Assembly (NCBI RefSeq): GCF_002310495.1
Contig: NZ_CP023344.1
Location: 1 to 64,000 of the forward strand
DNA: 64,000 nt
Direction: 5' to 3'
Source of the DNA: Nibricoccus aquaticus
GTDB taxonomy: Bacteria > Verrucomicrobiota > Verrucomicrobiia > Opitutales > Opitutaceae
Part shown: in pieces, positions 36,907-49,518 of the stretch
Layout: each line of letters begins with the position of its first letter
How positions within the stretch are numbered: position 1 is the stretch's first letter
Program-made: the position numbers and the translations under genes
Notes under the pieces: generated by a model
Database searches by the model: none
What the model was told of the DNA's origin: nothing
What the model saw: only the letters and a program-made list of their open reading frames with translations

Positions 36907-36931
36907 TGTAGGCGGGGTGCCCCCACCCCGC
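36907..36931. repeat. TGTAGGCGGGGTG hairpin repeat, intergenic copy
   Basis: GCGGGGTG (36912-36919) pairs with CACCCCGC (36924-36931) across a CCCC loop and is followed by TTT. It sits 11 bases after the rmuC stop and may also serve as its terminator. Related copies are at 44974, 46086 and 48564. Confidence 0.75.
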
Positions 36932-43834: not shown

Positions 43835-45043
43835 ATGCTCCCCGCCTCCGACATTGGTCACTGGTCATTGGTCACTGGTCATTCCCTCACAGCACCGTTT
43901 TCGTCCCTCGCCCTTAGCTCCGCGCCCTTCGCCCTCATCCCTCCCATCGACCTTCCCTCCGGCCTCCGCCTCGAATCCCCCATCTGGCTCTTCGCCCTCC
44001 TGCTGATCCCCTTCGCTATCTGGCTCCGTTCCCGCCGCTCCGTGCCCGTTTTGCTGATACCGTTCGCCGCCGCCTGGCACCGCCCCAGTCTCACGCAAAT
44101 CTCCCGCTTCCCGGCCATCCTCGCCTGCCTCGGCCTCGTCGCGCTCACGCTCGCCCTGGCCCGCCCGCAACGCGTCGAAGACAAACGCGAAGTCCGCTCC
44201 CAAGGCTACGACATCATGCTCGCAGTCGACCTTTCCGGCTCCATGCGCGCCGAGGACTACGAACGCGACGGCCAGCGCATCAACCGCCTCCAGGCCATCA
44301 AACCCGTCATCCAGGCCTTCATCAACCAGCGCCCCAACGACCGCATCGGCATCGTCATCTTCGGCGGCCGCGCCTACACCCTCGCCCCCCTCACCTTCGA
44401 CCACGCCTGGCTCCAGCGCCAGATGGAGCGTATCCGCATCGGCATGATCGAGGACAACACCGCCATCGGTGACGGCCTCGGTGTCGCCCTCACCCGACTC
44501 GAGCAATCTCAACGCGAATCCGGCGGCCGCCGACAGGGCGCGTTTGTCGTCCTCATGACCGACGGCGCCAACCGCACGGGCAACATGACCCCGGCCCAGG
44601 CCACCGAGATCGCCGTCTCCCGAGGCGTCCCTGTCTACACCATCGGAGCCGGCCGCGACGGCTTCGCGCCTTATCCTATACTCGACGACCAAGGCCGTCC
44701 CACCGGACGCTATCAACGCCAGCCGTCCGACCTCGACGAAGGCACCCTCCGCCGCATCGCCACCGCTACCAACGGTCGCTATTTTCGTGCCGACGACATC
44801 CGCACCGCCGAAAACGCCTTCGCCGCCATCGACCGCGCGCAGAAAATCGAATTTCAGGCCAAGTCCTACCTCCTCACCACCGAGCTCTTCCACTGGCCCG
44901 CCATCCCCGGCCTCGCCCTCCTCACCCTCGCGGCTCTCCTCATCCGCCAGCGCTCCGCAAGATCGTCCTCCGCTGGAGGCGCGGTGCCCTCACCGCGCAC
45001 AACCGTCGCAACTCCCAACGCTACGCCAGCCTCCGCCCGATGA
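43835..45043 (+). CDS. BatA-like VWA membrane protein
   Basis: The 402-residue protein has N-terminal membrane helices (LESPIWLFALLLIPFAIWL and FPAILACLGLVALTLALA), a VWA domain with the MIDAS motif DLSGSMRAED and MTDGANRTGN, and a C-terminal membrane helix (GLALLTLAALLI). Bat proteins protect envelope or oxygen-stress functions in Bacteroides and Leptospira; their biochemistry is unclear. Four TTGGTCA/CTGGTCA heptamers follow codon 6 and encode IGHWSLVTGHS. A hairpin repeat codes for GGAVPSPR near the end. It overlaps the BatB-like gene by ATGA. Confidence 0.88.
   Translation: MLPASDIGHWSLVTGHSLTAPFSSLALSSAPFALIPPIDLPSGLRLESPIWLFALLLIPFAIWLRSRRSVPVLLIPFAAAWHRPSLTQISRFPAILACLGLVALTLALARPQRVEDKREVRSQGYDIMLAVDLSGSMRAEDYERDGQRINRLQAIKPVIQAFINQRPNDRIGIVIFGGRAYTLAPLTFDHAWLQRQMERIRIGMIEDNTAIGDGLGVALTRLEQSQRESGGRRQGAFVVLMTDGANRTGNMTPAQATEIAVSRGVPVYTIGAGRDGFAPYPILDDQGRPTGRYQRQPSDLDEGTLRRIATATNGRYFRADDIRTAENAFAAIDRAQKIEFQAKSYLLTTELFHWPAIPGLALLTLAALLIRQRSARSSSAGGAVPSPRTTVATPNATPASAR
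43854..43881 (+). repeat. Heptanucleotide tandem repeat YTGGTCA, four units, in BatA
   Basis: TTGGTCA, CTGGTCA, TTGGTCA, CTGGTCA, starting 19 bases after the A of the batA-like ATG. Confidence 0.88.
44974..44998. repeat. TGGAGGCGCGGTG hairpin repeat, in-frame copy in BatA
   Basis: GCGCGGTG (44979-44986) pairs with CACCGCGC (44991-44998), loop CCCT. It encodes GGAVPSPR. Confidence 0.8.
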
Positions 45044-46986
45044 CCTTCCACTGGCCTCTCCTCCTCTGGCTTCTCGCGCTCCCGGTCCTCTGGCTCGCCT
45101 TCGACCTGCTCCGCCTCCGTCTCCACAAATCCACGACAGCCGCCTCCCCGTCGAAAATCATCCAGGCCGAAGCCACCCGTAGCGCATTGGTCATTGGTCA
45201 CTGGTCATTCCAGCGCGGTTTCGCGAAACCGCGCTGGCGCTTCTGCCTCGGCCTCGCCTTCGCCATCGTCGCCCTCGCCCGCCCGCAATGGGGCCGTCTC
45301 GATGAACCCGTCTTCGACCAGTCCCGTGAAATTCTCATCGCGCTCGATCTCTCGCGCAGCATGACCGCGCCCGACGTGAAGCCCAACCGCCTCGACCGCG
45401 CCAAGCTTCTCATCACCTCCCTCCTTGAACGCCTCCAGGGCGAACGCGTCGGCCTCGTCGTCTTCGCCGGCACCTCGTTTCTCCAGAGCCCGCTCAGCTC
45501 CGACTACGAGATCCTCCGCGACTTCCTCCCCTCGCTCAATCCCGACTTCCTCCCTCAAGGCGGCAGCAACTACCAAGCCCTCCTCGAGACCTCCCTCGAG
45601 TCTTTCGGCACCGAAGCCGCCGCCGACCGCTTCCTCATCATCCTCTCCGACGGCGAAGCCACCGACGACAACTGGAAATCCCTCACCGACGGCCTGAAAA
45701 AAAAATCCATCCGCGTCCTCGGCCTCGGCATCGGCACACCCGAAGGCGCCATGATCCCCGACAGCACCGGAGGCTTCATCAAAGACGAGCGCGGCGCCGT
45801 CGTTCTCTCCAAGCTCGAACCCCGCACCCTCCAGGAACTCGCCGAAACTACCACCGGCCTCTACACCGATGCTTCTTCCTGGGTCGATCTCGCCCAGATC
45901 ATCGAGTCCACCGTCGATGCCGGTCGCAAAGGCGCCTTCCTCGAACGCAACCGCGTCCGCCTCGCCGAACGCTTCCAATGGGTTCTCGCCCCCGCATTAC
46001 TCCTCTTCGCCTGGAGCTACTGGCGCGAATTCCCCGTCCGCCCCCGCCCCCGCGACATCCACTTGAAAACAAAAACTCCCTCCGATGTAGGCGGGGTGCC
46101 CTCACCCCGCATTCCAACCGTCGCTAATCTTATCACGCTCACTCTCACGCTTGCGCCACTGGTCATTGGTCACTGGTCATTCGCGGCGGAAGCCCCTTCC
46201 GCCGCCACTTCGCCGGACCCGGCGACGGCCATCGCCGCCCCCCTCAGCACCCTCGTCGGCAGCCTCGCCTCTCGCGAATCCCTCGCCGCCCGCGACTGCG
46301 CCCAGATCGCCACCACCACCATCACCTACGGCGAACGCCTCCAGTCCGCCAAACACCCCGTCCCCGAAGGCCCGATACGCGACGCCCTCCTCGCCGTGGA
46401 CCAGGGCGAAGCCACCGACGCCAAAGCCGCCGACTGGCCCGACCTCCGTGCTAAACTCAAAAAATTCCTGGAAAAACCCGAAGACCCGCAGAAGAAGGAC
46501 GACGAAAAAAAACAGGACGAGAAAAAAGACCAGCAGGACAAACAGGATAAACAGGATAAGCAGGACCAGAAACAATCCGGCCAGCCCGACGACAAATCCG
46601 AACAGGACAAAAAAGATCAGCAGCAAAAGTCCGACTCCCAGAAATCTGAAAACCAGCCCCAGTCGCAGCAAAACCAGCAGCAACAACAAGACTCCAAGCC
46701 CGGCGAAAAATCCAACGAACCGCCCAAGGAGCAGCAATCCGCCTTCGGCAAAATGGACGAAAAGCCACCCGAGCCAAAAACGCCGCAGGAAGTCCCCCAA
46801 CCCTCCGAAGAAACCCAGAAAATCGGTGGCACCCCCGACAACAAATCCACCGCTCCCGTCGATCCCTCACTCTCCGTCCCGCTCCAGAAACTCGATCAAG
46901 TCCGTGAACTCGATTCCCCCGGCCGCCTCTTTCAATTGATGCAAGACCCCAAGGCCCGCCCACCGAAAACCGGCAAAGACTGGTAA
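45040..46986 (+). CDS. BatB-like VWA protein with charged BatC-like tail
   Basis: The 648-residue protein has N-terminal membrane helices, a VWA domain with DLSRSMTAPD and LSDGEATDDN, another helix after the VWA domain, and then a long Lys/Asp/Gln/Glu-rich low-complexity tail (about 480-610) like that at the end of BatC proteins. The tail contains nine-base repeats encoding DKQ. It carries two in-frame YTGGTCA heptamer arrays (45187 and 46159), one hairpin repeat (VGGVPSPR) and A9 and A8 runs. It starts in the batA stop (ATGA) and ends six bases before the BatD gene. Confidence 0.88.
   Translation: MTFHWPLLLWLLALPVLWLAFDLLRLRLHKSTTAASPSKIIQAEATRSALVIGHWSFQRGFAKPRWRFCLGLAFAIVALARPQWGRLDEPVFDQSREILIALDLSRSMTAPDVKPNRLDRAKLLITSLLERLQGERVGLVVFAGTSFLQSPLSSDYEILRDFLPSLNPDFLPQGGSNYQALLETSLESFGTEAAADRFLIILSDGEATDDNWKSLTDGLKKKSIRVLGLGIGTPEGAMIPDSTGGFIKDERGAVVLSKLEPRTLQELAETTTGLYTDASSWVDLAQIIESTVDAGRKGAFLERNRVRLAERFQWVLAPALLLFAWSYWREFPVRPRPRDIHLKTKTPSDVGGVPSPRIPTVANLITLTLTLAPLVIGHWSFAAEAPSAATSPDPATAIAAPLSTLVGSLASRESLAARDCAQIATTTITYGERLQSAKHPVPEGPIRDALLAVDQGEATDAKAADWPDLRAKLKKFLEKPEDPQKKDDEKKQDEKKDQQDKQDKQDKQDQKQSGQPDDKSEQDKKDQQQKSDSQKSENQPQSQQNQQQQQDSKPGEKSNEPPKEQQSAFGKMDEKPPEPKTPQEVPQPSEETQKIGGTPDNKSTAPVDPSLSVPLQKLDQVRELDSPGRLFQLMQDPKARPPKTGKDW
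45187..45207 (+). repeat. Heptanucleotide tandem repeat YTGGTCA, three units, BatB first array
   Basis: TTGGTCA, TTGGTCA, CTGGTCA; 21 bases, seven codons, encoding part of LVIGHWSF. Confidence 0.85.
46086..46110. repeat. TGTAGGCGGGGTG hairpin repeat, in-frame copy in BatB
   Basis: GCGGGGTG (46091-46098) pairs with CACCCCGC (46103-46110), loop CCCT. It encodes VGGVPSPR. Compared with the copies at 44974 and 48564, one C:G pair is replaced by G:C. Confidence 0.8.
46159..46179 (+). repeat. Heptanucleotide tandem repeat YTGGTCA, three units, BatB second array
   Basis: CTGGTCA, TTGGTCA, CTGGTCA; again encodes LVIGHWSF, now after the VWA domain. Confidence 0.85.
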
Positions 46987-46992
46987 TCCGCC

Positions 46993-49518
46993 ATGCAACG
47001 TATCCGCATTTCTCTCTCGCTCGGCCTCCTCGTTTTCCTCGCCGCCTTCGCCCGCGCCCAGACCGTGCGCTGGGAACCCGCCAGCGGCAGCCTGGCCCAC
47101 AATCAAACCAGCGAGCTCTCTCTCATCTTCGAAAACTGCGAGCCCACCGCCGCTCCCGAGATCCCCGCCATCCCGGGCCTCACACTCCAGCGCGGCGGCG
47201 AGATCCGAAATACCTCCATCATCAACGGCCGTCGCTCGGAAAACGTCACGTGGATGTTCGCGGCCCGTCCCTCCCTGAAGCAGCGCATCTCCATCCCGGC
47301 CTTCGGTGTCGAGACCGACAAGGGTCGGCTCACCGTCGCCCCCGCCACCTTCGAAGTCGGAGAAGCCACCATCGGCGGTAATCTCTCCCTCGAATCCGTC
47401 GTCACCGCCCGCTTCCAGACGCCTCGCGAGGTATGGGCCGGCGAGATTTTTCCGATCACGTACAAGCTCAGCACGCTCCGCCGCTATTTTCATTCCTTCG
47501 GCAGCTATCTCGAATGGCCTCCCGCTCCTTTCGTCATCGAGGACTGGAGCAAGGGAGAACTGAAAGAAGCCGTGATCGCAGGAGAAAACCACGTGGTGCT
47601 CGAGCAAAACACCCGCGCCCTCGCCCGTACCACGGGCACTGTCACGCTCAACGCAGGCAACCAGCTCGTGAACGTCATCAAAGGCACCGACATGTGGGGC
47701 CGCGCCAACCTCGACCAGTTCGCCGTCACCAGCGACCGCCCGTCTGTCACCGTTAAGCCACTACCCACCGGCGCCCCCGCCGCCTTCAACGGCGCCGTCG
47801 GCCAGTTCACGCTCCAATCCAAAATCGTCCCCGTCAGCGCCAACGTCGGCGATCCCATCACCTGGACACTCACGCTCTCCGGCGCAGGAAACTGGCCCGA
47901 CCTCCCCGGCCTCCCCGCCCGCGAAGCCTCCAAAGATTTCCGCGTCGTCCAGCCCCAGGCCAAACGCACCAACAAAGAGGGCACGCTCTTCGAAGCCACC
48001 CTCGTCGAAGACGTCGTCCTCATCCCCACCAAACCCGGCACCTACACCCTCGGCCCCGTCACCTTCGCCTACTTCGATCCCGCCAAAGGCACCTACCAGA
48101 CCGCCACCGCCCCGCGCACGACCGTCACCATCGCGCCAGCCGCCACCAGCGCCCCCACAGCCTCCACGCAAAACACGCCTGCCTCCACAGCCAGCGCCGC
48201 CACACCCGCCAAAACCCTCACGCCTCCCGCCGCACCCGCCGCCATCCCGCGCGACCCGCTCCCCGGCTCCGCCGAAGCCCCGCTCCCCCTCAGCCCGCGC
48301 ACGCTCCTGCTCGCCGCCCTCTCGCCGCTCCTTCCGCTCCTCCTCTTCTGGTTCATCCTCGCCCTGCGCCGCGCCAAACAAACCGACCCTCTCCGCCCTC
48401 AACGCGAAGCCCGCGCCCGCCTCGCCGCCACGATCGCCGAACTCCGCACCGCCAAAGACCGCGCCCAGATCGTCGCCCTCCTCCAAGCCTGGCAACGCGA
48501 CACCGCCGCCCTCTGGCCCCTCGCCCGCGCCGTCCCCTCCGCCACCGACTTCGCCGCATCCGATGGAGGCGCGGTGCCCTCACCGCGCGTGCCCGATTCA
48601 TCCTCCCCTTGGTCCACCCTCTGGCTCGAAGCCGAACGCTGTCTCTACCGTTCCGATACACCGCTCCCCGCCGACTGGACCGCCCGCGCCGAAGCCGCCC
48701 TCGCCGCCCGCCCGGTGAAATCCTTCAGCGCCTTCTCCCTCTTCCTCCCGCGCAACCTCCTCCCCTTCGCCGCCGCCCTCGCGCTCGTCCTACTGTCTTT
48801 CCCCGGCTCTCTCTCCGCCCAAGACGCCGCCAAAGCCGCGTACGACCGCAGCGACTTCACCACCGCCGAAAAAACCTGGCGCGACCAACTCGCCAAAACG
48901 CCGACCAACTGGATCGCCCATCACAACCTCGCCCTCGCCCTCGCCCAGCAAAACCGCTGGCAGGAAGCCGCCGCCCATTCCGCGACCGCCTTCGTCCAAC
49001 ACTCGTCCGACGCCTCCGTCCGCTGGCACCTCGCACTCACGCTCGATAAAGCCGGGTACGCGCCCACGACGATCTCCGCCTTCATCAACCCATCGCCGCT
49101 CCACAACCTCGCCCGCCGCTTCTCCCCCGCCGAATGGCAGCGCGTGATCATCGCCGCCTCCGCCCTCGCCGCCCTCGCCCTCGCACTCGCCCTGCTCCGT
49201 CTCCACGGCTCCTGCTCCCGCGCGCTAAAACCCGCTGCCTGGACCCTCGCCCTCCTCTCGCTCCTCGTCCTCGCCACCGGCCTCCTCAGCCTCCGCCTGT
49301 ATTCGCCAACCAGCGACCTCCGCGCCGCCCTCGTCTGGAAACAAACGACTCTTCGCTCGATCCCCACCGAAGCCGACACCGCCCAGAAAACGACGCCACT
49401 CGCCGCCGGCTCCATCGCCGTCATCGACAAAACCTACCTCGGCTGGTCCCGTCTCGCCTTCAAGAACGGTCAGACGGGCTGGGTACGTCACGAAGATCTC
49501 CGTCAGCTTTGGCGCTAA
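46993..49518 (+). CDS. BatD-BatE fusion protein
   Basis: The 841-residue protein begins with a signal peptide (ISLSLGLLVFLAAFARAQ) and the BatD oxygen-tolerance domain (VRWEPASGSLAHNQTSELSL, beta-sandwich repeats to about 380). A membrane helix (about 437-455) follows, then a cytoplasmic stretch with a hairpin-repeat-encoded GGAVPSPR and another helix. After that come TPR-like helices (YDRSDFTTAEKTWRDQLAKT, IAHHNLALALAQQNRWQEAA), two more helices and a terminal SH3-like domain (LGWSRLAFKNGQTGWVRHED). TPR plus SH3 is the BatE layout, so BatD and BatE are joined here. Confidence 0.87.
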   Translation: MQRIRISLSLGLLVFLAAFARAQTVRWEPASGSLAHNQTSELSLIFENCEPTAAPEIPAIPGLTLQRGGEIRNTSIINGRRSENVTWMFAARPSLKQRISIPAFGVETDKGRLTVAPATFEVGEATIGGNLSLESVVTARFQTPREVWAGEIFPITYKLSTLRRYFHSFGSYLEWPPAPFVIEDWSKGELKEAVIAGENHVVLEQNTRALARTTGTVTLNAGNQLVNVIKGTDMWGRANLDQFAVTSDRPSVTVKPLPTGAPAAFNGAVGQFTLQSKIVPVSANVGDPITWTLTLSGAGNWPDLPGLPAREASKDFRVVQPQAKRTNKEGTLFEATLVEDVVLIPTKPGTYTLGPVTFAYFDPAKGTYQTATAPRTTVTIAPAATSAPTASTQNTPASTASAATPAKTLTPPAAPAAIPRDPLPGSAEAPLPLSPRTLLLAALSPLLPLLLFWFILALRRAKQTDPLRPQREARARLAATIAELRTAKDRAQIVALLQAWQRDTAALWPLARAVPSATDFAASDGGAVPSPRVPDSSSPWSTLWLEAERCLYRSDTPLPADWTARAEAALAARPVKSFSAFSLFLPRNLLPFAAALALVLLSFPGSLSAQDAAKAAYDRSDFTTAEKTWRDQLAKTPTNWIAHHNLALALAQQNRWQEAAAHSATAFVQHSSDASVRWHLALTLDKAGYAPTTISAFINPSPLHNLARRFSPAEWQRVIIAASALAALALALALLRLHGSCSRALKPAAWTLALLSLLVLATGLLSLRLYSPTSDLRAALVWKQTTLRSIPTEADTAQKTTPLAAGSIAVIDKTYLGWSRLAFKNGQTGWVRHEDLRQLWR
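48564..48588. repeat. TGGAGGCGCGGTG hairpin repeat, in-frame copy in BatD
   Basis: GCGCGGTG (48569-48576) pairs with CACCGCGC (48581-48588), loop CCCT. It encodes GGAVPSPR, in the same frame as in BatA. Confidence 0.8.

Follow-up and report, generated by a model that had tools for sequence, protein, structure and literature searches.

An in-frame GTAG/GGAG-class REP hairpin in the bat operon of Nibricoccus aquaticus: reading-frame restriction and orientation along chromosome arms

The bat operon of Nibricoccus aquaticus, located in a window of 64,000 nucleotides (the whole stretch of DNA analysed, positions 1 to 64,000 of contig NZ_CP023344.1), carries a 24-nt hairpin repeat in each of the genes for BatA, BatB and BatD. 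All three copies lie on the + strand in phase 0, and they are read as GGAVPSPR in BatA and BatD and as VGGVPSPR in BatB. How could one palindrome come to be translated in the same orientation and the same frame three times within a single operon? The initial annotation, whose coordinates, strand, phase and peptides all agreed with ours, offered two answers: mobile hairpins tolerated in linkers with selection for the frame, or a peptide that serves as a protein element. The first is supported by the anatomy of a repetitive extragenic palindromic (REP) element, a pair of copies flanking the gene of a REP-associated tyrosine transposase (RAYT) in a relative, the variable length of the insertion sites and the frames of nearly all in-gene copies. 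Probably, then, the repeat is a GTAG/GGAG REP, a RAYT-type element that inserts into variable linkers and is kept there in benign frames by purifying selection. A chance origin of the copies in the window was ruled out, since the hairpin (≤3 mismatches) occurred 4 times against 0.36 expected, a number reached in 0 of 100 shuffles. Duplication of one bat gene segment was also ruled out, as the copies share little past the core and the first flanking bases.

By its tag, hairpin, copy number and stem covariation the repeat is a REP element of the GTAG/GGAG class. The search with GKAGGCGSGGTGCCCYCACCSCGC (≤3 mismatches) found 67 places in the 4.73 Mb single-contig genome, about one copy per 70 kb, and none with the reversed-pattern control. 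The set used for analysis comprised 68 copies, the place at 2326109 having been removed and two copies with one-base indels (327688 and 2635473) added. Two main subtypes were found among them, GTAG with CGGGG/CCCCG stems (34 copies) and GGAG with CGCGG/CCGCG stems (19 copies), and stem pair 8-21 was GC in 41 and CG in 24 of the 68. As a single strand the element folds into a stem of 8 bp and a loop of 4 nt, at -10.8 to -11.7 kcal/mol (z about -4.2). The tag was GTAG or GGAG in N. aquaticus and GTGG or GTAG in G039, a single-contig genome of another genus. In each of three data sets 94-96% of copies had a T ahead of the tag, the first bases past the stem were also biased, and the N. aquaticus copies had an additional conserved 5' side. 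The conserved unit would run from this T through about two bases past the stem, with the longer 5' side in N. aquaticus. The element was mostly extragenic, with only 11 of the 68 N. aquaticus copies within called open reading frames (ORFs). Three of these 11 sit in the 5.7-kb bat operon, and for this clustering we have no explanation beyond tolerant linkers.

In a scan of a genome collection, exact copies were found in at least 120 stretches, every one listed coming from a metagenome-assembled genome (MAG). Among the matches listed, 112 of 120 had titles naming Opitutae, Opitutia, Opitutaceae, Lacunisphaera or Opitutus, five Kiritimatiellia or Kiritimatiellae, and three Verrucomicrobia only. 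Within one mismatch the element was present in 14 of the 61 genomes of the family examined, N. aquaticus included. The listed MAG stretches contained 144 copies, with 14 close pairs in opposite orientation whose starts were 34-55 bp apart. In one genome (G026), a single contig (C27) held 11 of the 15 listed copies inside about 62 kb. The association with a RAYT was found in a Lacunisphaera MAG (L189), where two copies of opposite orientation (1018-1041 and 1506-1529) bracket about 0.5 kb of DNA that holds a RAYT gene; the match to NCBIfam REP_Tyr_transpos had an E value of 6.7e-21 and 74.7 bits, below the 80-bit cut-off. A RAYT gene between inverted REP copies is the textbook REPtron. One side of a similar arrangement was present in another Lacunisphaera MAG (L210). 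In both MAGs the RAYT unit, or its one end, abuts the end of apparently the same gene (hemA-like, by reading), and this common position suggests a shared old REPtron. The element would be one of the non-autonomous hairpins that RAYTs (TnpA-REP) are believed to mobilise as single-stranded DNA, and we infer that a RAYT transposes it. The N. aquaticus genome itself has three Y1_Tnp matches, and the two that were scanned against NCBIfam (L031 and L033) both exceeded the RAYT cut-off. A second REP family (GTAGGGACAATGCTCCGCATTGTCC-like), a GTAG hairpin flanking its own RAYT (L033, around 1148-2032), occupies 17 places in N. aquaticus and had no match in G039.

Gene calls, made with a purpose-written small codon-model finder, placed 53 copies within ORFs (11 of 68 in N. 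aquaticus, 24 of 144 in the MAG set and 18 of 73 in G039). Sense phase 0 accounted for 29 of them and antisense phase 2 for 17; four of the seven others sit in ORFs of 81-105 codons. A strict test was also applied in which the frame was taken solely from 150 nt on each side, avoiding circularity; 37 of 285 copies passed, and the rule excludes copies near gene ends, that of BatA included. This set contained 22 copies in sense phase 0, 14 in antisense phase 2 and one in sense phase 2, so that 36 of 37 were in two of the six frames. If open frames were equally likely, 15.2 would be expected there (P about 1e-13, assuming independent copies), and stop-codon avoidance alone was thus ruled out as the cause. 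Control positions were uniform over phases within each orientation. Equal rates in all frames and orientations, the distribution that the initial annotation had set against its own idea, were therefore not found. In a six-frame translation of four variants of the element, with the bases around it taken as an assumed consensus, only sense 0 and antisense 2 were free of stop, Cys and Trp in all four. Of the other frames, antisense 1 contained Cys and sense 1 Cys or Trp; sense 2 had either a stop or Cys (once together with Trp), and antisense 0 either a stop or Trp. Sense 0 encodes a VGGVPSPR-like peptide and antisense 2 a RGEGTPP-like one. G039 is the most informative genome on this point: its eight strict sense copies carry the tags GTGG, GTTG or GTCG and are all in phase 0; none of these tags contains TAG, and therefore the tag closes no sense frame. 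We infer that purifying selection underlies the frame restriction. Inside genes the element would survive mainly in the two frames that give a stop-free peptide lacking Cys and Trp, and mainly in polar segments of variable length.

Several points weigh against this explanation. The gene finder was unbenchmarked, and its looser calls gave a weaker frame result, with 46 of 53 copies in two frames. The copies are not all independent, since one MAG site recurs (L176/L200) and a helicase read as HrpB has an antisense copy at seemingly the same site in two genomes (N. aquaticus 4174924 and L145); the common HrpB site means that some in-gene insertions are old. At the DNA level no empty site was recovered, the best relatives having about 50-54% BatD protein identity. 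In the stretches of about 3.2 kb around the three Y1_Tnp matches of N. aquaticus no copy of the element was found at ≤7 mismatches, and with no element-flanked RAYT found there, its mobility in this genome may be past.

The orientation of the copies followed the chromosome arm. With arms defined by GC skew, 62 of the 67 N. aquaticus copies were oriented with the arm, being mostly + over the first half of the chromosome and mostly - over the second, with exceptions at 295067, 2277797, 3631379, 3634923 and 4020354. When local skew was used instead of the arm, 61 of the 66 copies with fetched DNA agreed. The same was true of 69 of 73 copies in G039, the tag preferring the C-rich strand of each arm. 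The arm limits were set by us from sampled GC skew, at 2.19 and 4.46 Mb in N. aquaticus and about 2.05 Mb in G039; the N. aquaticus skew is messy between 2.10 and 2.28 Mb, a stretch that includes two copies in inverted arrangement at 2.278 Mb. The skew was about -0.3/+0.3 by arm in N. aquaticus and about 0.2 in G039, and third codon positions in N. aquaticus had C 0.67 and G 0.16 on one strand and C 0.29 and G 0.49 on the other. Gene direction was ruled out as an explanation of the orientation: of 34 copies whose host gene or two neighbouring genes opposed the arm, 32 were still arm-oriented (15 of 17 in N. aquaticus and 17 of 17 in G039, the latter representing 13 sites, with two being copies in one 105-codon ORF that is possibly spurious). 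Most landings would be intergenic and would place the tag almost always on the C-rich strand of the arm. Since that strand preference gave the + strand bat operon its copies in one orientation, the shared orientation of the bat copies mainly reflects the chromosome-arm rule and nothing specific to bat.

An alternative is that both frame and orientation are set at insertion, by a transposase preferring a pyrimidine-rich target that lies mostly on the C-rich strand and in a fixed codon phase of these strongly C3-biased genes. TnpA-REP enzymes are described as cutting at CT or CA, and at CC if the tag is altered to GTGG (PMC8266576, as far as the consulted portion goes). A flank model was built on intergenic copies only, with a random-flank control. 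For the 55 intergenic copies of G039 the flanks gave 5.7:1 in favour of the C-rich strand, a ratio that random flanks did not reach (mean 1.95, range 1.26-2.58); this speaks for such a preference. The 57 of N. aquaticus, however, gave 5.3:1, inside the random range of 2.6-5.9. Random flanks there are nearly equal to real ones, so composition may explain much of the polarity; target composition might account for much of it but not clearly for all, as the observed ratios (62:5 and 69:4) exceed the 5-6:1 of the flank model. For the frame, the G039 model predicts that, according to which junction phase is assumed, about 0.25-0.46 of in-gene insertions would fall in one sense and one antisense phase, whereas all 13 of the 13 strict in-gene copies of G039, sense and antisense, were in the two frames, which rules out target sequence as the cause of the restriction. 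Taken as a whole, an origin of both patterns at insertion appears unlikely, and selection after insertion remains our preferred account of the frame. Clearly less probable still is the idea that the hairpins are functional polar sites, similar to FtsK orienting polar sequences (KOPS) or Chi, or related to transcription, with their orientation on each arm kept by selection. A strong arm polarity overriding gene direction would suit such sites, but there is only about one copy per 70 kb, the same polarity was found in the unrelated GTAGGGACAATGCTCCGCATTGTCC-like family (15 of 17 arm-oriented) and in a heptamer repeat which is not a hairpin, and 47 of the 61 family genomes examined are without the element at ≤1 mismatch.

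The G-rich strand is probably the leading strand, because rpoB lies on it in N. aquaticus and G039 and mnmE-mnmG (plus dnaN in G039) fall within the skew-flip zone of both genomes. Against this assignment, about 2.1 Mb separates dnaA of N. aquaticus (position 376) from the mnmE-mnmG cluster (2.147-2.163 Mb), and so dnaA probably lies far from the replication origin. Coding DNA also counts against it, amounting to 32.9 kb on the C-rich and 23.2 kb on the G-rich strand in the window, and to 23.0 and 14.9 kb in a second unselected N. aquaticus sample; in G039 the relation was reversed (27.0 kb C-rich, 38.8 kb G-rich). Among the places found for parS, the sole perfect palindrome fell within the coding sequence of mnmG in both genomes, at identical codons by our offsets; it may be coding conservation and was left uncounted, the gene neighbourhood serving as the marker in its place. 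The 16S rRNA, sought as a replication marker in the N. aquaticus genome, gave no match and was not interpreted. With the G-rich strand leading, the tag would be lagging-sense, which appears to be a mismatch with the simplest lagging-template model. We raise only tentatively, as a possibility, that REPs of Opitutaceae are laid down strand-specifically at the replication fork, so that their polar pattern spans the whole chromosome irrespective of gene direction, and that the element, benign in exactly one frame per strand, repeatedly supplies new linker peptides in frame. In that case the lagging-sense position of the tag would point to a route other than lagging-template insertion of the IS608 type.

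The insertion sites were assessed in twenty bat loci of relatives, some shortened by contig ends. No copy was found in any of the 20 by the exact core pattern, and the three bat positions align to stretches varying in length or absent across the relatives; the BatA comparison gave nothing for L237 and L248, whose rows were too short or empty. The statement of the initial annotation that each copy adjoins a membrane segment held for BatA and BatB but not for BatD, in which about 55-65 residues separate the copy from the hydrophobic segments closest to it; these distances were estimated by inspecting the sequence and its translations, without a transmembrane predictor. Polar or small residues made up 0.77 of positions within 15 residues of in-gene copies and 0.68 at 20-50 residues away, and Pro 0.11 and 0.07. 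Compared with KdpB of PDB 6hra, N. aquaticus KdpB has a 12-residue insertion at its REP copy. The other suggestion of the initial annotation, that GGxVPSPR serves the cell as a protein element (a linker, processing or interaction motif), gained no support and is highly improbable: the same peptide is retained in nearly all sense copies, but 14 of the 37 copies in the strict set are antisense, with an unrelated peptide as their product, the hosts look unrelated (KdpB and, by sequence reading, helicases, a U32-like peptidase and a ModA-like protein), and the exact core pattern gave no copy in the 20 bat loci of relatives.

Since intragenic GTAG REPs of Opitutus terrae were published in 2013, the kind is already known: O. 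terrae had the most intragenic GTAG copies among the genomes surveyed, in families named GTAG-17, -19 and -20, and insertions in flexible linkers or loops were proposed to be possibly neutral (Di Nocera et al. 2013, PMC3733652). The N. aquaticus element resembles these in its tag and short stem-loop, in occurring as single elements and dimers, and in having copies inside ORFs; arm polarity and frame restriction were not found described in the portion of that report consulted. On this descriptive comparison it belongs to the known GTAG REP kind, as a new member or possibly one already known. REPs, bacterial interspersed mosaic elements (BIMEs) and REP doublets forming hairpins (REPINs) share with it a GTAG or GTGG tag, a hairpin and a RAYT flanked by copies (excerpts of PMC2817692, PMC8266576 and PMC6006769), whereas the N. 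aquaticus and G039 copies are mostly not inverted pairs and are strongly arm-polar, and many N. aquaticus copies are tagged GGAG. Rickettsia palindromic elements (RPE) are likewise palindromic repeats within genes but differ in sequence; the intragenic R. conorii repeats RPE-4 and RPE-6 are counted as CGTC repeats, listed with no transposase association, and RPE-1 is described as longer (PMC3733652, same portion). The IS200/IS605 family has related Y1 HUH enzymes (PMC6006769, in the section available), and a replication-tied orientation would be its expected signature, here matched by the arm-following copies (62 of 67 and 69 of 73); the tagged strand is apparently lagging-sense, opposite to the simplest lagging-template model for that family. 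In the literature examined on REP polarity and intragenic palindromes we recognised no report of the frame rule or of orientation polarity. Among the findings, arm polarity is the more novel one. The spread of REP elements is described as still poorly understood (PMC8266576, consulted in part). An arm-following orientation in two genera, and in a second unrelated family in one genome, makes a link between REP spread and replication testable, and the frame rule illustrates how proteins can take up a palindrome and stay intact.

Table 1. Genes and repeat copies of the bat region and the intergenic REP copy in the window
Feature	Position	Strand	Basis
BatA-like VWA protein gene	43835..45043	+	ORF; Pfam VWA
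BatB-like VWA protein gene	45040..46986	+	ORF; Pfam VWA
BatD protein gene	46993..49518	+	ORF; Pfam BatD
REP copy, GGAG tag, GGAVPSPR, BatA C-terminal tail	44975..44998	+	
REP copy, GTAG tag, VGGVPSPR, BatB linker	46087..46110	+	
REP copy, GGAG tag, GGAVPSPR, variable BatD segment	48565..48588	+	
REP copy of the same family, intergenic, 11 bp past called gene end	36908..36931	+	
Heptamer-type repeat ATTGGTCACTGGTCATT, two overlapping copies, read IGHWS in BatA	43853..43883	+	
Heptamer-type repeat ATTGGTCACTGGTCATT, LVIGHWS in BatB	45186..45209	+	
Heptamer-type repeat ATTGGTCACTGGTCATT, LVIGHWS in BatB	46165..46181	+	

The heptamer repeat ATTGGTCACTGGTCATT, on which no literature was found, is a direct repeat and not a hairpin, and is in frame (IGHWS) in BatA and BatB. 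It occurs exactly at 22 places in the N. aquaticus genome, four of which are in the 5.7-kb bat operon. Its copies were arm-oriented in 20 of 22 cases by the arm limits given above, and all 16 with fetched DNA were on the locally C-rich strand.

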